Source: a bacterium (lineage in GTDB: Bacteria > Bdellovibrionota_C > UBA2361 > RFPC01). From it: DNA of 64,000 bases. Shown in pieces: positions 22,014 to 45,054 of the stretch. Position 1 is the stretch's first letter, and each line of letters starts with the position of its first letter. The notes under the pieces are model-generated. The model saw nothing but the letters and a program-made list of their open reading frames with translations. It ran no database searches and was not told the DNA's origin. The translations under genes and the position numbers were made by a program. Where the stretch lies: NCBI GenBank assembly GCA_030431715.1, contig JAUIIO010000008.1, positions 62,001-126,000 of the forward strand, in the 5' to 3' direction.

Positions 22014-25000
22014 TTACTGACAGCTCTCGCAATCACCATCAAGATTACAAGAAGCTACCGGCATCTCCGGCTTAGCCTCAGCAGTTACTGCTTCGGCTGC
22101 CGCAGCTACCTCTTCTCTTGCGACGTTCACATCCGACGAAGCTGACTTATTTTTCATCCAACGAGGCTGAAGTCCTCGTTTATTGATGTCCATAGTCGAC
22201 TTCTCAATCTGAGTAGCTCCGAGAGAACGCAGATAGTACGTCGTTTTAAGCCCTTTCTTCCACGCCATGAGATACATGCTGTTAAGCTTTTTCCCGCTTG
22301 GCGTACCAAGGTAGAGGTTTAGTGACTGACCCATATCAATCCACTTCTGCCGTCTGCTCGCACATTCTATGATCCACTCGGGCTCAATTTCAAATGCGGT
22401 GAGATATACACTTTTAACATCGTCAGGAATTCTCTCTATCTCAAGAATTGAGCCGTCAAAATACTTGAGATCGTCGATCATTTCCTCATCCCAGAGCCCA
22501 AGTGTCTTAAGCTTCTCAACGAGATACGTGTTACAAATAGTGAACTCTCCTGAGAGGTTAGACTTCGCAAAGAGGTGCTTGTACGAAGGCTCAATTGATT
22601 GGGTCACACCAGAGATGTTTGAAATTGTAGCCGTTGGCGCAATTGCCATCGTGTTACTATTTCTCATGCCATGCTTTTTGACAGACTTTCTAACCACATC
22701 CCAATCAAGCTGCGCAGTAGTATCAACGTCTATCCACTCACTGCCTCGCTCTTCAGCAAGAACACCAATGGTATCAATAGGTAGAAGCCCTCTATCCCAT
22801 TTTGACCCTTTGTAAGTCTGGTAAGCGCCTCTTTCTCCGGCGAGCTCACTTGAAGCAAGGATCGCATAGTAAGAGATCATTTCCATGCTTTCGTCGGAGA
22901 ACTGAACTGCTTCCGGGCTAGCGTAGCTAATGTCTCTTTCATAGAGCGCATCTTGAAATCCCATAAGACCAAGACCAACTGGACGGTGACGTAAGTTCGC
23001 ATTCTTTGCTTCATCAGTCGGATAGAAGTTAATATCTATCACGTTATCAAGCATACGAATGGCTGTACGAACCGTTGAAGCGATAAGCTCTCTATTAAGC
23101 TCACCATCTTTCATGTGCGCCGGCAGGTTAACAGAACCAAGGTTACACACCGCTGTTTCTTCTGCAGAAGTATTGAGAAGGATCTCTGTGCAGAGGTTTG
23201 AGCTATGCACAACACCTGTGTGATCCTGAGGAGAGCGAACGTTTGACGGATCCTTAAAGGTAATCCACGGATGCCCTGTTTCGTAAAGCATGCTGAGCAT
23301 CTTTCTCCAGAGATTTACCGCTTCTACTTTCTTATGGAGCTTAAGCTCACCACTCTCAGCCATTGCTTCATACTCAAGATAACGCTCTTCAAAGGCCTTA
23401 CCGTAGAGATCGTGAAGGTCTGGGACATCACTTGGGCTAAAGAGGGTCCACATAGCACTCTCTGAAACACGCTTCATAAAGAGGTCTGGAATCCAGTTTG
23501 CCGTATTCATATCGTGTGTACGACGTCGCTCATCACCAGTGTTCTTTCTAAGCTCAAGAAAGTCTTCAATATCAAGGTGCCACGTTTCAAGGTAAGCACA
23601 CATTGCGCCCTTTCTCTTACCACCTTGGTTTACTGCAACAGCTGTATCGTTTGCTACTTTTAAGAAAGGAATAACTCCTTGGCTCTTTCCGTTCGTGCCT
23701 TTAATCCACGATCCAGTAGCACGAACATTTGTCCAGTCGTTCCCAAGCCCGCCGGCCCATTTTGAGAGCTGCGCATCATCAGAAACAACCTTAAAGATGT
23801 GCTTAAGATCATCCATTACCGTAGAGAGGTAACAAGAGCTTAGCTGCGGGTGAAGCGTTCCAGCGTTAAAGAGCGTTGGAGTACTTGAAACAAAGAGAAA
23901 GCGAGAAAGGACGTTATAGAACTCAATTGCTCGCGCTTCCTTCTGCGCACCTTCTCCGATAGCAAGCCCCATGGATACACGCATCCAAAAGATCTGAGGA
24001 GTTTCAAGACGAACCTCTCTCTCATGGATAAGGTATCGATCGTAAAGGGTCTGGATACCGAGATAAGTAAAAGACTGATCACGTTCAAGCTTGAGCGCTC
24101 CTGCAATCTTATCGAGATCGTACTCCTTAAGCTTCGGATCAAGTCGCTCGTACTCAATGGCCTTTGTAAGATAGTCTTTAAAGTACTCCTGATGACGCTT
24201 TTCAAGGTTCGGATCGTGAGCATCGACTCCCATTGTTTCGCGGTAAATAACATCAAGAAGAAGCCTTGAGGCAACGTAGCTATATGCCGGCTCTTTCTCG
24301 ATCTGAGACTTAGCCGCCATAACGTTAGAAGCATCAACTTCATCAAAGCGCACACCTTCATAGAAGTTACGAAGAGAGCTCTCAATGATCTCCTCCACAG
24401 ACACGACATCCTCATAACCACGACATGCGTATGTGATTCGAGTTCTAAGCTCTCCTTCAGAGATAGTAAACGTTGAGCCATCACGCGCAGTGACAGTGAA
24501 AATCTGACCGGTCTCTTGTACGGCAACTGGCTTATGCTCAACTGGCGCCGCCGCAGGAGCCTTAACTTCTAATCCTTTTTGCTCTCGAAGAAGCGCGCGG
24601 GTAGTGCGGTAAATGATGAAGTCTTTGGCAACTTGGTAGTATCCTTCGGCCATCATCTGACGCTCGATCTCATCTTGAATGAGCTCTACATGAAGGTCCT
24701 TTCCCTCTCTGGCGATCTGCACAGCGCTGGCTATGACACGGTTCGTAAGCCGGCTTACAGCATCGATAACTCCCTGTGGGCTCTGCCCCTCTATCTTAAG
24801 AGACGCGCGAAAAGCCTTCTCGATGGCCGAAGCTATCTTGAGCGGCTTAAACTTAACAAGTGATGTGCCATCGCGACGAAAGATCTTAAGATTTCGTGGC
24901 GAATCCTCGCGGTGAAGCTTACGCTCCTCGCGGTAAACAATGTAGTGACGTCCAACATCATGGTGGCCAAACTCAAGAAGTTTCTCTTCAACGATGTCTT

Positions 25001-25373
25001 GAATACCCTCAACGGTAAGACACTCTCCGCTTCGCGCTTCCTCAAAAGCCGTGGCAGAAACCGCAGCTGATACTTCTTGTACAGCGGCGTGCATCTCACG
25101 TGGAAGTGGTTCGGTAACTGGAATTTCGTGAGTAGCACGGAAGGCCTTGGCGATAGCGCTGGTGATACGCTCGGCGCGATACGGGACAAGTGCGCCGCTT
25201 CTCTTAACGACGGTACACTCATCGATACTCTCTGGTACCCGCCCAGGGGTGTTTATCATTTCGGATCCTCCAATACCTAATTCTACTGTCTTTACTTGAA
25301 TTTTGTTGTTTTCGACCTGATTAGCTCCTGTTTTGCCTGCCAGACCTTCTGAAGCGGATCCTGTTGCCTCCAT
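22014..25373 (-). CDS. nrdA: Ribonucleotide reductase large subunit with tandem ATP cones
   Basis: The 1119-residue catalytic subunit reduces ribonucleoside diphosphates. Catalytic residues are Cys514 (LSSCYLS), Asn726/Cys728/Glu730 (NLCTE) and Cys743 (AVCNLG), with the redox pair in the C-terminal DCESCQ. The N-terminus has two ATP cones, about residues 53-152 ([11 protein letters not shown]) and 162-262 ([12 protein letters not shown]), and a further cone-like segment near 291-380. E. coli NrdA has about 760 residues and one cone; the long multi-cone form resembles chlamydial enzymes. Tandem cones imply more complex allosteric control of overall activity. The upstream region carries NrdR boxes. 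Confidence 0.95.
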
Positions 25374-31287: not shown

Positions 31288-31314
31288 TAAGCAAATCCCG
31301 TAAACAGCCGATTA
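31288..31314 (+). promoter_or_regulatory. Possible sigma-28 (flagellar) promoter
   Basis: TAAG (31288-31291), then 15 bases, then GCCGATTA (31307-31314) fits the FliA/sigma-28 pattern TAAA-N15-GCCGATAA with one mismatch in each box. It lies 62 bases before the flagellin start, the expected place for a late flagellar promoter. It is a pattern match only. Confidence 0.55.
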
Positions 31315-31375: not shown

Positions 31376-33238
31376 ATGCCGTTAACCCTAGGTAGTAATA
31401 TCTCGTCGCTGAGGAGCCAGAGAAGGCTTTCGCAGAGCAGCGAACAGCTGGGGCTTGTCTTTGAGCGGTTAAGCAGTGGGCAGCGAATTAATAAAGCAAG
31501 CGATGACGCAGCTGGTCTAGCGATAGCAGACAATTTACGCACTGATAGCCGGGTATATACACAAGGTATACGAAATCTAAACGACGGACTTTCCGTACTT
31601 AATATAGCCGATGGTGCCCTCTCTGAACTCTCTGGTATCACAACTCGTCTATTAGAACTCGCCGAACAGTCTGCTAATGGAGTCTTTAGCAAATCGCAAA
31701 GAGAATCTCTAAACGCCGAAGCTCAAGCATTAAAAGATGAATTTTTTCGCATATCCAAGAGCACCGAATTTAATGACAGAGTGCTCTTCAGTGGAAGCTA
31801 TGGGGAATTAAGACTACAAGCCGGCTACGGCGCTGAGGGCTCAATTGTTAATGGGCTTGGAGGTGCTATTGGAACAGGGCAGCTTGAGGACGCAAGTACA
31901 TACACTGTGGCATCTGGAACCTCTGACGTTACCACAGGCGACTTTAATGGAGACGGTCATTCAGATTTGGTCATAGCTAACTCGGGAAGCGATAATGTAA
32001 GCATACTCCTTGGAAATGGTTCAGGTGGCTTTGGTTCTGCTACTGATTATTCAGTTGGGAACAATCCTCGTTCGGTTGATACTGGTGATTTCAACAACGA
32101 TGGCATTTTGGATCTCGTAACAAGCGACAACAGCGATAACACTGTAAGCATACTGCTGGGTAACGGTAATGGCACATTCGGCACAAACGCTACCTTTAGT
32201 ATAGGAAATGGCTCTCAATCTGCTACCGTTGGAGACGTAAACAATGACGGCAACCTAGATATCGTAAGTGGTAACTCTACCGATAGCACCGTAAGTGTGC
32301 TGCTCGGACAAGGGGATGGCTCATTTGCTACTGCAATATCTTATGCGGCGGGAATACAGGCCTCAAGCGTTGTTATTGGCGACTTTAATAACGACGGAGT
32401 TACCGATCTCGCTACACGCGCAACAAGTGCTATAAGCATCCTTTTAGGGCAAGGTAGTGGCAGCTTTGGCTCTGCCTCTACTTTTACAGTAGCTGGAGTG
32501 GGTATTGGCGAGGCAGAGCTTGTTGCAGGAGATTTTAATAATGACGGGGCTTTGGATCTTGCCGCGAACAAAGGCGATCTTCCCGGATCGATAAGTATAT
32601 TTTTGGGTCAGGGTGACGCAACCTTTGGCGCTGCGATTTCAGTATCTACCGGGGCAGCCCGGCCGGATGATCTAGCGACTGGAGACTTTAATGGTGACGG
32701 GATATTAGATATTATTTCAGCAAATGCGTGGAGCACACAGGTAAGTGTGCTGATAGGGCAAGGAAATGGTCAGTTTGATGCATCCACATACTCCGCGGGA
32801 ACAGGTGAAAACGTAGCGGCTGATGACTTTAATGGCGATGGCGTGCTCGATGTTGTAACCATAGCAGACTCAGGAACATCAGCCTTTGTATTGCTAGGCT
32901 CGACAGCCGACGGCGTAGCACCACTACTTGATTTTTCTCTCGAAACTCAAGCATATGCCCTACAAGCTCTTCCAATATTTTCTCGTAAGCTTAACAGCAT
33001 TGCCGAACAGAGAGGACAAATAGGTGCCTTTATGGCAAGAGTAAGTACAGCAAGGGACGTACTTACGGTATCTACTGAGAACTATACCTCCGCTGAAGGA
33101 CGGATTCGTGATGTGGACGTATCTCAAGAAAGTGCAAACCTCACTCGGCTAAACCTGCTCCAGCAAGCAAGTGCCGCTGTACTCGCACAAGCAAATCAGC
33201 AACCAGCTGTAGCACTTCAGTTACTACAGCAAAGCTAA
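31376..33238 (+). CDS. Flagellin carrying a seven-bladed FG-GAP propeller
   Basis: The ends are classical flagellin: residues 1-165 (LGSNISSLRSQRRL, QRINKASDDAAGLAIADNL, LNDGLSVLNIADGAL) and 518-620 (RGQIGAFMARV, ENYTSAEGRIRDVDVSQESA, ASAAVLAQANQQP). Between them, about residues 180-515, sit seven FG-GAP/VCBS units of about 47 residues, each with a DFNGDGxxDL-type calcium loop (the first at 189-194) followed by VSILLGxGxGxF. Seven units is the count for a closed beta-propeller, which would be displayed as the D2/D3 domain on the filament surface. No other flagellar gene is in the window. The GC and codon style are like the neighbours. Confidence 0.93.
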   Translation: MPLTLGSNISSLRSQRRLSQSSEQLGLVFERLSSGQRINKASDDAAGLAIADNLRTDSRVYTQGIRNLNDGLSVLNIADGALSELSGITTRLLELAEQSANGVFSKSQRESLNAEAQALKDEFFRISKSTEFNDRVLFSGSYGELRLQAGYGAEGSIVNGLGGAIGTGQLEDASTYTVASGTSDVTTGDFNGDGHSDLVIANSGSDNVSILLGNGSGGFGSATDYSVGNNPRSVDTGDFNNDGILDLVTSDNSDNTVSILLGNGNGTFGTNATFSIGNGSQSATVGDVNNDGNLDIVSGNSTDSTVSVLLGQGDGSFATAISYAAGIQASSVVIGDFNNDGVTDLATRATSAISILLGQGSGSFGSASTFTVAGVGIGEAELVAGDFNNDGALDLAANKGDLPGSISIFLGQGDATFGAAISVSTGAARPDDLATGDFNGDGILDIISANAWSTQVSVLIGQGNGQFDASTYSAGTGENVAADDFNGDGVLDVVTIADSGTSAFVLLGSTADGVAPLLDFSLETQAYALQALPIFSRKLNSIAEQRGQIGAFMARVSTARDVLTVSTENYTSAEGRIRDVDVSQESANLTRLNLLQQASAAVLAQANQQPAVALQLLQQS

Positions 33239-38892: not shown

Positions 38893-40020
38893 CTAAATAG
38901 CTACAGAAAGCGCGCTATCCCAGTTTTTCCAGACAGGTTCAAGTCCTTTTCTCTCCAGCATCTTAATAACTTGAGAGGGACTTCTCTCATCGGATGTTGA
39001 AAATTGTTCAAGTGCTCTCTTGGGGTTTGTGTATCCACCAGGCTCAGTTTTTGAACCTGCGCTCATAGTAGTCGGGCCAAGTGTGACGACATTATCACGA
39101 TAGTACTGGCTTTCTCGCGTTGAAAGAGAGAGCTCAAGATCTTCATCAAAAATTCGAAAGGCGCATATAAGCTGCGTAAGCTCTCGCTCTCCAACATCAG
39201 AGGGGCCGTGCGTGACACCTTCTGCGGGACGCAGTCTCGGGAAAGAAATACTATAAGATGTCTTCCAGTACTTCTTACGAAGATACGTGAGATGAAGCGC
39301 TGTAAATGTTGAATCAACTCTCCAGTCTTCAAGACCGAGAAGTGCTCCGAGTCCAATCTTATCAATCCCAGCTGCCCCTAACCTGTCAGGTGTTTCAAGA
39401 CGGTACACAAAATTTGATTTTTTACCTTTTGGGTGGTGAATACGGTAGTTTTTTCGGTGATAGGTTTCTTGGTACACAAGTACGGCATCAAGCCCTTCGG
39501 CAATCAGCTCCTCGTACTCAGGCTGATCCAGAGGTTGAACTTCTAACGAGAGGTGAGAAAATGTATTGCGACTGAGTTGGAGCACATTTTTAAAGTAATC
39601 CACACCAACAGTCTTATTTGCCTCACCACTAACAAGGAGCAGGTGATCAAACCCGAGCTTCTTAAGTGCTAACAGCTCCTCCCCGAACTCTATATCACTT
39701 AACGTCTTACGCTTTAGCTTATGATCGTAACTAAATCCACAGTAGGTACAGATATTCTGACACTCATTTGAAACATAAAGCGGAGCATAGAGCTGAATTG
39801 TGTTTCCAAAGCGCTTCCGAGTAAGAGAGTAACTAAGCTTGGCCATGGATTCCAAGTACGGTGCAGCCGCTGGTGATACTAGGGCCATAAAATCGTGAAG
39901 ATTACGGCCTCCACTCTTTGTGAGAGCAAGCTCTACATCACGATCTGTTTTACTCGCAATACTGGTTTTAAGCTCTTCCCAGCTAAACTGCTCAAATACT
40001 CTTGTGAACGTATCCTTCAT
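38893..40020 (-). CDS. thiH: 2-iminoacetate synthase (radical SAM)
   Basis: ThiH cleaves tyrosine to dehydroglycine for the thiazole moiety of thiamine. The 375-residue protein has the radical SAM cluster motif CQNICTYCGF (CxxxCxxC) and the downstream ELTQLICAFRI and SAGSKTEPGGY segments of ThiH. It is the last gene of the thiamine operon and is separated from thiG by the palindromic repeat B, whose edge provides the purine-rich GAGAAGGG before the thiH ATG. Confidence 0.93.
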   Translation of the reverse strand: MKDTFTRVFEQFSWEELKTSIASKTDRDVELALTKSGGRNLHDFMALVSPAAAPYLESMAKLSYSLTRKRFGNTIQLYAPLYVSNECQNICTYCGFSYDHKLKRKTLSDIEFGEELLALKKLGFDHLLLVSGEANKTVGVDYFKNVLQLSRNTFSHLSLEVQPLDQPEYEELIAEGLDAVLVYQETYHRKNYRIHHPKGKKSNFVYRLETPDRLGAAGIDKIGLGALLGLEDWRVDSTFTALHLTYLRKKYWKTSYSISFPRLRPAEGVTHGPSDVGERELTQLICAFRIFDEDLELSLSTRESQYYRDNVVTLGPTTMSAGSKTEPGGYTNPKRALEQFSTSDERSPSQVIKMLERKGLEPVWKNWDSALSVAI

Positions 40021-40024
40021 CCCT

Positions 40025-40165
40025 TCTCCGCGCTCTCCGCGTGCTCCTTGTTTATTTTAAAGTTTAATAACCGATTGCCATTTTTCGCAAACGCGGCCTG
40101 AGGTTTTTGTTTCCATAAGAACGATTAAAACACAGGAGTTCGCGGAGAGCGCGGAGAGCGCGGAG
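40025..40165. repeat. Palindromic CTCCGCG repeat element, copy B (inside the thi operon)
   Basis: The left arm is CTCCGCG-ct-CTCCGCG-tg-CTCCTTGT and the right arm is the complement with one extra CTCCGCG unit (three instead of two). The loop of about 75 bases has GCAAACGCGGCC in its middle, similar to copy A. It fills the 171-base gap between thiG and thiH, so the operon transcript should contain a long hairpin here. Confidence 0.8.
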
Positions 40166-40191
40166 ATTAGGTGACCGGGGTAGCACATTGC

Positions 40192-40959
40192 CTACTCCAA
40201 AAAGCTTGTAAGGGGGCTACTTGCTGAGGCGGTCATCTGAATGGCGCCCGGTCCGGCTTCGTATGCGGATCTTCCAGCTTGAACTGCACTGGCAAAGGCT
40301 CCTGCCATTCTTACAGGATCGCTTGCAACCGCAATGGCGGTATTAACCAGTACCGCATCTGCCCCCATCTCAAGGGCCTGTGCTGCGTGTGATGGCACTC
40401 CAATACCAGCATCAACCACAACAGGAACCGATGATTGGTCTATAATAATCTCAAGCATATCTCTGGTGGTAAGCCCTTTATTGCTTCCAATAGGTGCACC
40501 AAGTGGCATAACGGCGGCTACGCCAACGTCTTCAAGGCGTTTGCACAGTACCGGATCGGCGTGCACGTATGGCAGCACAACAAAACCTTTCTTCACAAGC
40601 TCTTCAGCCGCAGCGAATGTTTCAACAGGGTCGGGCATCAGGTATTTGGGATCGGGATGAATTTCAAGTTTTAGCCAATTTGTTTGAAGCGCTTCTCTAG
40701 CAAGTTCTGCACTAAACACAGCTTCTCGCACAGACTTTGCTCCCGAGGTATTTGGGAGTAAATCAACCCCCGGCACTTGAAGCGCCTCAACCATATTGTC
40801 TCGTTTTTCTTTTAGCTGAATACGTTTTAAAGCAAGAGTAACAAGATTTGTCTCTGAAGCGATAACGCTTTCCCTCATAACGTCTACCGATGAGAACTTT
40901 CCTGTTCCTAAAAACAATCTGGAAGCAAATTCCTTACCGGCAATAACTAGCTTACTCAT
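40192..40959 (-). CDS. thiG: Thiazole synthase
   Basis: ThiG forms the thiazole phosphate ring from deoxyxylulose phosphate, dehydroglycine and ThiS thiocarboxylate. The 255-residue TIM-barrel protein shows [64 protein letters not shown] and AVLVNTAIA. Lys96-equivalent positions lie in the KLEIHPDP segment. It overlaps thiE by 4 bases (ATGA). Confidence 0.95.
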
Positions 40960-41600
40960 AGAACCTCACTATTCATGTTCACAGGAGTTGAATACGAAAT
41001 AGACTGTGAACTCTTTAATCGATTAATTATATCTGCTGAGATCGCAACGCTCTGTACACCAAGCGCACAGACTTCACTTATCTCATCAACTAAGATTCCC
41101 CCTACGGCTACTACTGGCACCCGATCCTCTCTTTTCTCCAATGCAGAAGCTATACTTTGAACACCCATCGGGCCTAGAATTGGACTTAGTTTTTTCTTTG
41201 TATTCGTAAAGCGGTAAGGTCCCAAACCGATATAATCTATGGAATAACTCAAAAGCTGTAGCACATCTTCTTCCGTATTCGCCGTACAACCAATAACTGC
41301 TTCTGATCCAAGGATTTCTCGTGCTTTTTGAGGAGACATGTCGTGCTTACCGAGATGGACTCCATCTGCCCCAACTTCTCGTACTACGGTCACATTGTCA
41401 TTTATTATGAGCATTACTCCATACGCTCTGCATATGTCACGAGCTGCGAGAGCAGCGTTCACATACTCTGTGTACGAAGCCTCCTTCATTCGTAATTGTA
41501 TGGCTTTTATTCCTGCCTGACATGCACGTTGTACCTGCTGAACATGAGAGAGAGAGGAGTCTTCTCGAGTAATGAAATAGAGCGGTGGCAGGATCATCAT
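40956..41600 (-). CDS. thiE: Thiamine phosphate synthase
   Basis: ThiE couples HMP-PP and thiazole phosphate. The 214-residue TIM barrel has [61 protein letters not shown] and VVAVGGI. Its [12 protein letters not shown] loop is a good match to the pyrophosphate-binding region. It overlaps thiD and thiG by 4 bases on each side, so it is translationally coupled. A second ThiE-like protein is encoded upstream. Confidence 0.93.
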
Positions 41601-42376
41601 ACGAGTGGCGCACGCATTGAAAGGGGCTCGGGCAGTTCAAAATCTTCCCCATTATGAAAACCAAAGAGTTGCTGCATATATGAAAAGGCTTTCTTTGAAG
41701 CATCAAGCAAGCTATCGCCACACGCAAGATAGGTGGCCAATGCACTAGAATGCACACACCCCGAACCGTGAACGCTCACTCCGCGGAACCGCTTGGAGCG
41801 AAAAACTTCAACGAGTTCTTTGTCATAGAGTTTGTCTACTACCATATCTCCTTGATCGTGACCTCCCTTTAAGAGAATTGGTGCATGCTGCGAAAGTCTT
41901 TCAGCCGACTTATCAGGACAGCTCATTCGAGAAAGCAGTGCGACCTCTTCTCTATTTGGAGTAGCTACCGTGCAATGCGACAAAATGGTCTTTAGCTCAC
42001 TTTCAGAGATGAGATCGTGAAAAATATAACCACTACTCGTTTTTAAAACTGGATCCCATACAACTGGCACAACACCTAGGGCTCCTCGAATGAGGCGCAG
42101 TGTCTCACAGAGATCGTAAATACAAGGGAAGAGCCCAATCTTAACAGCTTTGATAGGATAGTTTTCAAAAAGAGGTAGAAGCTGTTGTCGTAAGTCCGAG
42201 AGACTCACAGACCGATACCCCCTACAGGAGTTCTCGGTCTGATAGGTTAGCGCAGTACATACCGAAAGTGCGCGTGAGCCCAAAGACTCGATAGCACGCA
42301 CGTCTGCAAGTATACCTGCACCACCAGAAGGATCGTGTCCTGCTATGGTAAGCACATATCCTGTTGTATCTGACAC
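41597..42376 (-). CDS. thiD: Hydroxymethylpyrimidine phosphate kinase
   Basis: ThiD phosphorylates HMP and HMP-P. The 259-residue ribokinase-fold protein shows AGHDPSGGAGILADVRAIES at the N-terminus, TALTYQTEN, PVVWDPVLKTSSGY and the ATP/anion-hole motif GSGCVHSSALATYLA. It overlaps the preceding thiE-like gene by 34 bases and thiE by 4 bases. Confidence 0.95.
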   Translation of the reverse strand: MSDTTGYVLTIAGHDPSGGAGILADVRAIESLGSRALSVCTALTYQTENSCRGYRSVSLSDLRQQLLPLFENYPIKAVKIGLFPCIYDLCETLRLIRGALGVVPVVWDPVLKTSSGYIFHDLISESELKTILSHCTVATPNREEVALLSRMSCPDKSAERLSQHAPILLKGGHDQGDMVVDKLYDKELVEVFRSKRFRGVSVHGSGCVHSSALATYLACGDSLLDASKKAFSYMQQLFGFHNGEDFELPEPLSMRAPLV

Positions 42377-43014
42377 TCCGACTTAATCTCCTTAAACGCA
42401 GCTACTGGATCAGATTCGTTCCAGACAGCTCCTAACACAGCTACTCCATCAAAGCCCATATCAAGTACTGGCTTGATTCTTTCAGAGTTAATTCCTCCAA
42501 GAGCTACCACAGGATTTCTCACATGCGGAAGCGTTGCTTGTAAATCTTCAAAAGAGAAAGAGGCTCCATTATATTCCTTGGAGATACTGTCATAGACCGG
42601 GCTGATAAAGACATAGTCGTATCTAGCTGGTGAGAAACGCAGCTCATCAAGCGTATGGTAGCTTGCACTGAGTTGCATCTTTGGGTTCTTGTCTATGAGA
42701 AATTCAAGTTGTGCCTGACAAAACGAGTTTGAAGAGTGTAGTTGAGTAGAAGTAAGGTGTACTCCTTTCAAATTATACTCAAGGGCCAGATCGTAGAAAG
42801 AATGAACAACAATGTGTTGATGGTATCTCTCAGGAAGAGCATCTAACCATGCTCTCATCTGATCGATCGAATAAGTAGGCTTACGTAGATGGAAGGTTGT
42901 TAAGCCTTCATCACATATTTTTGCCACGATTTTTTGTTCAAGATTTTCTGTAGCTTCAGCACCCTCAACAGTAGTAGGGAGTTGGGCGTGTGGTGAAATG
43001 ACTATTAGCTTCAT
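42343..43014 (-). CDS. ThiE/TenI-like protein, second copy
   Basis: The ATG at 43014 has GGAG eight bases upstream, unlike the 43110 start. The 223-residue TIM-barrel protein shares LTTFHLRKPTYS, VHSFYDLALEYNLKGVHLTS, YDYVFISPVYDSISKEYNG and PVVALGGINSER with thiamine phosphate synthase and TenI families. The phosphate- and pyrophosphate-loop residues of true ThiE are less well conserved here, so TenI-like thiazole tautomerase is as likely as a second ThiE. Confidence 0.8.
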   Translation of the reverse strand: MKLIVISPHAQLPTTVEGAEATENLEQKIVAKICDEGLTTFHLRKPTYSIDQMRAWLDALPERYHQHIVVHSFYDLALEYNLKGVHLTSTQLHSSNSFCQAQLEFLIDKNPKMQLSASYHTLDELRFSPARYDYVFISPVYDSISKEYNGASFSFEDLQATLPHVRNPVVALGGINSERIKPVLDMGFDGVAVLGAVWNESDPVAAFKEIKSECQIQQDMCLP

Positions 43015-43161
43015 ATGTTCGTCTCCAAAATGGCTCTCAACAAATACATCATCAACAGTTGAGAGATCAGCTAGACTGGCAAGTACGCTGCTAAGTTTCA
43101 GACTTAGCACAGCGCACTGCTATAACGTTATGACGGCACACTGGCATTACAACGCATAATG

Positions 43162-45054
<1,893 letters not shown>

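Follow-up and report, generated by a model that had tools for sequence, protein, structure and literature searches.

What would a flagellin do with the propeller of an integrin? The question is raised by a gene at 31376..33238 on the forward strand of a 64-kb window (the whole stretch of DNA analysed, 64,000 nucleotides of contig JAUIIO010000008.1, from the draft genome of an uncultured lineage). Its open reading frame (ORF), 620 codons and a stop, encodes flagellin ends around seven FG-GAP repeats, a combination that we call a propeller flagellin. The answer that we favor, and hold to be fairly probable, is that an integrin-like, calcium-binding propeller replaces the usual outer domain, and that the filament displays thousands of them, binding surfaces, particles or other cells.

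The gene product and its predicted fold

In Pfam, the 620-residue product matches Flagellin_N (PF00669; residues 7-141, 114 bits, E 7.2e-33) and Flagellin_C (PF00700; residues 537-617, 69 bits, E 4.5e-19), both above cut-off, together with seven stretches of FG-GAP_3 (E 1.4e-57) and five of FG-GAP. Seven DxNxDGxxD loops, all complete, start at residues 189, 238, 287, 336, 386, 437 and 484, a spacing of 47-51 residues. The initial annotation, which had claimed flagellin N- and C-terminal domains and seven FG-GAP/VCBS units, each with such a loop, was therefore right on both counts. The flagellin and FG-GAP make-up is near certain, and the pattern of domains and loops is confirmed to lie far beyond chance. 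The propeller (residues 170-512) carries 42 acidic residues and 4 basic ones, which fits its predicted binding of calcium. The initial annotation had suggested adhesion, prey recognition or enzyme display as possible roles. The Pfam scan found no enzyme family in the product; with regard to the gluzincin metallopeptidase domain of flagellinolysin, it returned no peptidase family at E 0.01, and the insert is FG-GAP. The features of the locus are as follows.

31288..31314, + strand: putative sigma-28 (FliA)-like promoter, TAAG-N15-GCCGATTA, a pattern match beginning 88 nucleotides 5' of the start codon
31376..33238, + strand: propeller flagellin gene, 620 residues (ORF, Pfam and NCBIfam)
31394..31798, + strand: Flagellin_N, D0/D1 N-terminal helices, residues 7-141 (Pfam; helices 7-33, 45-100 and 106-129 predicted)
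31877..32914, + strand: predicted seven-blade integrin-like beta-propeller, residues 168-513 (AlphaFold2, loop positions)
31940..31966, + strand: calcium-type loop DxNxDGxxD of blade 1 (motif)
32087..32113, + strand: calcium-type loop of blade 2 (motif)
32234..32260, + strand: calcium-type loop of blade 3 (motif)
32381..32407, + strand: calcium-type loop of blade 4 (motif)
32531..32557, + strand: calcium-type loop of blade 5 (motif)
32684..32710, + strand: calcium-type loop of blade 6 (motif)
32825..32851, + strand: calcium-type loop of blade 7 (motif)
32984..33226, + strand: Flagellin_C, D1/D0 C-terminal helix, residues 537-617 (Pfam; helix 525-619 predicted)

The closed seven-blade propeller that had been proposed for these repeats is a confident prediction: the hidden Markov models (HMMs) fit, AlphaFold2 places a seven-blade propeller between the D1 helices, and the model of a second, divergent paralogue has the same fold. 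Both ends of the propeller lie at the calcium-loop face in the predicted structure, from which we infer that the other face points outward; the calcium-loop face would be turned toward the filament, where an integrin joins its leg, and the opposite face, with the most variable loops, would project into the medium. The integrin alpha propeller likewise has seven FG-GAP blades, and the first and last residues of the alignment lie at its two ends. The two differ in that identity is 16-19%, that the propeller flagellin is without thigh, leg or beta subunit and is carried on flagellin D1, and that its calcium-type loop is kept in all seven blades. The fungal lectins PVL, AAL and PAL (Foldseek E 4e-11 to 9e-10, TM-score 0.52-0.55 of target) are also propellers and bind sugars, but they are free-standing and resemble the propeller flagellin in fold alone. 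No solved structure among the best 60 of 122 and the best 60 of 77 matches is named as a propeller flagellin, a survey of names that is not a test.

Blades were counted with a local blade HMM. Among 83 aligned flagellins (74 of alignment A1 and nine more of the source genome), 80 have seven blades, one has six and two have eight; the 12 flagellins outside the alignment have seven (six proteins), six (five) or five (one), and 34 non-flagellin FG-GAP matches have 11-21. The same count was made on 97 propeller flagellins from 12 genomes, comprising 17 from the source genome and 80 of the 90 full-length matches of relatives, the other ten being left out for stops, cut sequences or, in five genomes, a single full-length match each; here 81 have seven blades, ten have six, five have eight and one has five. 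By these counts seven blades is the rule, with a six-blade minority. The proteins P0015, P0036, P0046, P0059 and P0081, of 569-586 residues and about one blade shorter, count six blades with the HMM and are likely a six-blade variant. Complete loops number seven in 52 of the 83 aligned flagellins, six in 25, five in four and four in two.

Repertoire, expression and distribution

The source genome amounts to 3.97 Mb spread over 56 contigs, with a completeness of 94.6% and a contamination of 1.2%. Of its 36 Flagellin_N matches, 34 are above cut-off, and subtracting FlgL leaves 33 flagellin genes. Their N-terminal parts are all distinct, the nearest pair being 90% identical over 150 residues in a comparison that omits two genes lacking the anchor motif. 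A search for further propeller flagellins, as the initial annotation had proposed, brought the number in this genome to 21: 17 nearly complete genes with 6-7 DxNxDG motifs each, two of them clipped slightly at a contig end, and four that run into contig ends inside the propeller. One of the cut genes probably continues on another contig, the overlap containing one mismatch. The other 12 flagellins fall into six of 286-306 residues and six of 415-459. Three of 451-459 residues (L018:3676-5031, L015:3622-5001 and L023:2640-4001) contain one to three FG-GAP stretches, too few for a closed seven-blade propeller, and are possibly intermediates or partial propellers. At L020:3810-6334 two flagellin genes overlap, encoding 426 and 415 residues; neither insert has a Pfam match, and that of the second contains, by eye, a dockerin- or EF-hand-like stretch, DYNGDGRVSPGDL. 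A seemingly enormous frame ending in a flagellin C-terminus was set aside, since it came from reading through a run of N.

Flagellin genes stand in tight arrays, four of them 1 nucleotide apart, three overlapping by 4 nucleotides and two pairs overlapping by 8, the start codons being mechanical choices. This spacing suggests co-transcription and coupled translation, and on the strength of it we infer that several propeller types would be made together and mixed in one filament. The magnetotactic cocci MO-1 and MC-1 are likewise rich in flagellins, with 14 and 15 that are encoded for the most part in a tandem array, and all 14 of MO-1 are reported in its filaments; these are the highest counts in bacterial genomes to date according to a 2020 review (PMC7175107). 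The source genome differs in having 33 flagellin genes, 21 with propellers, a domain not mentioned for MO-1 or MC-1 in the relevant part of that review.

The putative promoter matches the sigma-28 (FliA) consensus. The strict pattern TAAG-N15-GCCGATTA occurs 10 times genome-wide, against 4 for a reversed control, and three of the 10 matches begin 88, 177 and 178 nucleotides 5' of propeller flagellins. Looser scoring was applied to the 22 leading flagellin genes, a set without nine downstream array genes and two that have too little upstream DNA; at least 10 of 12 positions match in 9 of them, whereas 30 base shuffles average 0.8 such genes and never exceed 3. Classical sigma-70 sites were considered and set aside, since 2 occur near the gene and 4.1 are expected.

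The gene itself is solitary, flanked by a ThiF-rhodanese gene on the opposite strand and by an ORF without a Pfam match. Elsewhere in the window, on the reverse strand, are a ribonucleotide reductase large subunit of 1,119 residues with, by eye, repeated ATP-cone-like N-terminal domains (22014-25373) and, also by eye, a thiamine biosynthesis cluster (ThiH-, ThiG-, ThiE-, ThiD- and ThiC-like, with two ThiE-like genes; 38893-45054).

The family is spread over the phylum: at least 17 of the 45 genomes examined have a full-length match, with up to 17 per genome among the matches listed. In the phylum to which a genome deposited as Bdellovibrionales belongs, at least 4 of 368 genomes have full-length matches and one more has partial matches, a lower bound because three candidates were scored per genome. 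Relatives with long matches, all uncultured, include HKST-UBA19, 20, 25 and 28, deposited as Bdellovibrionales (HKST-UBA20 being linked by matching coordinates to the family of the source genome), Deltaproteobacteria UBA2409 and mag.25, Proteobacteria H1_MAG_00014, and SZUA-149 and Co_bin.267, deposited as 'bacterium'. In the protein database, 86 of the best 120 of 7865 matches combine Flagellin_N with FG-GAP, 8 of the 86 being from the source genome. The contig L045 (OFTM40), labelled Saprospiraceae, also has a propeller flagellin; the three matches of that 7-Mb genome all lie on one contig, which is probably misbinned.

Flagellins with other inserts have been described, and a survey counts 61 domain types in flagellin hypervariable regions (PMC5595980). 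FG-GAP is absent from the top-ten insert table of that survey, and its full 61-domain list may mention it. Like propeller flagellins, flagellinolysins display along the filament a functional domain of foreign origin, set in the hypervariable region; theirs is a metallopeptidase, found in 86 sequences from 74 species (PMC5595980), whereas the propeller has no enzyme match and occurs in 21 genes of one genome. The open-access full-text literature, judged by titles and abstract openings, yielded no earlier description of propeller flagellins, in agreement with the novelty first claimed for this gene.

Divergence of filament bodies and propellers

Across the 136 pairs formed by the 17 nearly complete genes, filament bodies are 72% identical on average and propellers 33%, with no pair of propellers above 44%. 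The disparity is sharpest in the array of four on contig C33, with bodies 90-95% and propellers 31-36% identical, and it recurs in the relative G046 (86% and 42%); a G017 pair, 97% identical in body and 90% in propeller, is a counter-example. In the set of 97, body identity is 63% inside a genome and 53% across genomes, against 33% and 31% for propellers. Each difference is larger than in 2000 of 2000 label shuffles, and propellers of one genome are thus also slightly closer to each other than to those of other genomes.

Between G051 and G052, two genomes of one genus, the four closest pairs among the highest-ranking matches have bodies 78-90% and propellers 46-65% identical; nonsynonymous divergence (dN) is 0.26-0.48 for propellers and 0.09-0.18 for bodies, that is, 2.5 to 4.5 times faster. 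Because recognizable counterparts persist between these genomes, the propellers seem to have been inherited and to diverge fast, not to have been reshuffled. Only one pair has unsaturated synonymous sites; its members are both from G017 and, as that genome has 9% contamination, perhaps represent two strains of one gene. The ratio of nonsynonymous to synonymous divergence (dN/dS) is about 0.04 for its body, 0.14 for its propeller and 0.25 for its top loops. Judged by this pair, the propeller is under purifying selection that is relaxed on the outer face. Positive selection is unsupported, since synonymous sites are saturated in most pairs and the measurable propeller gives about 0.14.

Recent exchange of propellers was considered and rejected: the longest propeller DNA common to two flagellin genes is 26 nucleotides. 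A giant FG-GAP protein of 3,892 residues fared no better as a donor (22 nucleotides at most), and no donor was found. Codon-shuffled partners share 14 nucleotides or fewer, and the slight excess of 22-26 over chance may stem from conserved loops alone. Between flagellin genes the filament bodies have up to 126 nucleotides in common, which suggests that bodies, and not propellers, are homogenised. The giant protein (L122:6770-18445, reverse strand; contig C14:14767-26463) counts 64 FG-GAP blades when scored with the local HMM. Close to its N-terminus Flagellin_N matches weakly (22.5 bits, below cut-off), and the adjoining genes are, by eye, glycosyltransferase-like; a 4,585-residue frame in H1_MAG_00014 matches the same profile.

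Attachment, mechanics or evasion

We propose that the seven FG-GAP repeats would close into a calcium-stabilised head in place of the usual flagellin outer domain, that a filament would display thousands of outward-facing propellers of several kinds, and that these heads may be used for attachment to, or recognition of, surfaces, particles or other cells. Given 21 genes with differing repeats, the filament would likely double as a many-headed gripping or recognition surface. Several observations weigh against this proposal. In the 17 paralogues variability is far higher in the top loops (BC, DA) than in the bottom loops (AB, CD), at 2.71 and 1.19 bits. A sample of 240 of the 445 blades from the 34 non-flagellin FG-GAP proteins gives 2.97 and 1.36 bits, and top-face variability, once taken as proof of ligand binding, is on that account weak evidence for it; the variability is a trait of the fold, and only the orientation is special to the flagellin. 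Outer domains can also become diverse with no ligand involved, for example under phage pressure. The TM-scores of flagellin matches in Foldseek are low, at about 0.3 of the query, since the match is limited to the helical ends; a strong sigma-28-like box is missing from 13 of the 22 leading flagellin genes; and the genome is an incomplete draft in many contigs.

The propellers could instead be a mechanical outer layer, in which calcium-stiffened heads pack round the core and, with no ligand, adjust the stiffness or waveform of the filament. We consider this unlikely, though not strikingly so. Outer-domain sheaths act in this way in some enteric and soil bacteria, and sheaths that alter motility have been described (PMC8931119); the seven-blade size is well kept, and the purifying selection seen in the measurable pair would suit such a role. 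Lateral contacts would then be expected to be conserved, yet the outer D strands of the 17 paralogues are nearly as variable as the top loops (2.54 against 2.71 bits), and array neighbors have only about one-third of their propeller residues in common.

Less probable still is that the heads are evasive, moving targets or decoys for flagellum-binding phages, predators or host defences, with no useful binding by any head. The faster change of propellers than of bodies between G051 and G052 and the ceiling of 44% identity among the 17 propellers speak for evasion, but counterparts remain recognizable between those two genomes, no positive selection is seen at the dN/dS values of the measurable pair, and the arrays look co-expressed, not switched.

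That the protein is a hook-associated (FlgL-like) or secreted flagellin relative and not a filament subunit, as the label 'flagellin-like hook-associated protein FlgL' given to relatives in some databases would have it, is very hard to credit, since the scores of NCBIfam flagellin models reach 188.8 bits and that of the FlgL model is 98.8 (cut-off 127.2, which the genome's own FlgL passes with 149), and 21 copies are at odds with a junction protein. Among the best 25 of 27 matches, no flagellin model reaches its whole-protein cut-off, because the insert is foreign to the models. The genome encodes a filament system, with FlgK, FlgL, CsrA and FliW adjacent on one contig (FlgL by NCBIfam, the others by eye from ORFs) and two Pfam matches to FliD.

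Returning to attachment and recognition, a bolder form of the proposal is one that we offer tentatively and think possible rather than probable. This whole uncultured lineage may build mosaic recognition-brush flagella, with up to 21 flagellins per cell, each bearing a different outward integrin-like calcium propeller on a closely similar shaft, from the largest flagellin repertoire known; they would be a bacterial counterpart of integrin-type recognition for the capture of prey, host or particle. Flagellins with foreign outer domains are known, whereas the literature searched held no integrin-type propeller kept mostly at seven blades and carried by 21 genes of a single draft genome, and 33 flagellins are more than double the 15 that the 2020 review gives as the highest number (PMC7175107). 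The protein also offers a natural scaffold by which a filament would carry a propeller of about 345 residues. If the proposal is true, flagella serve this lineage as a multi-specific binding surface, and a long-standing question, why so many flagellins are kept by many bacteria, becomes testable.
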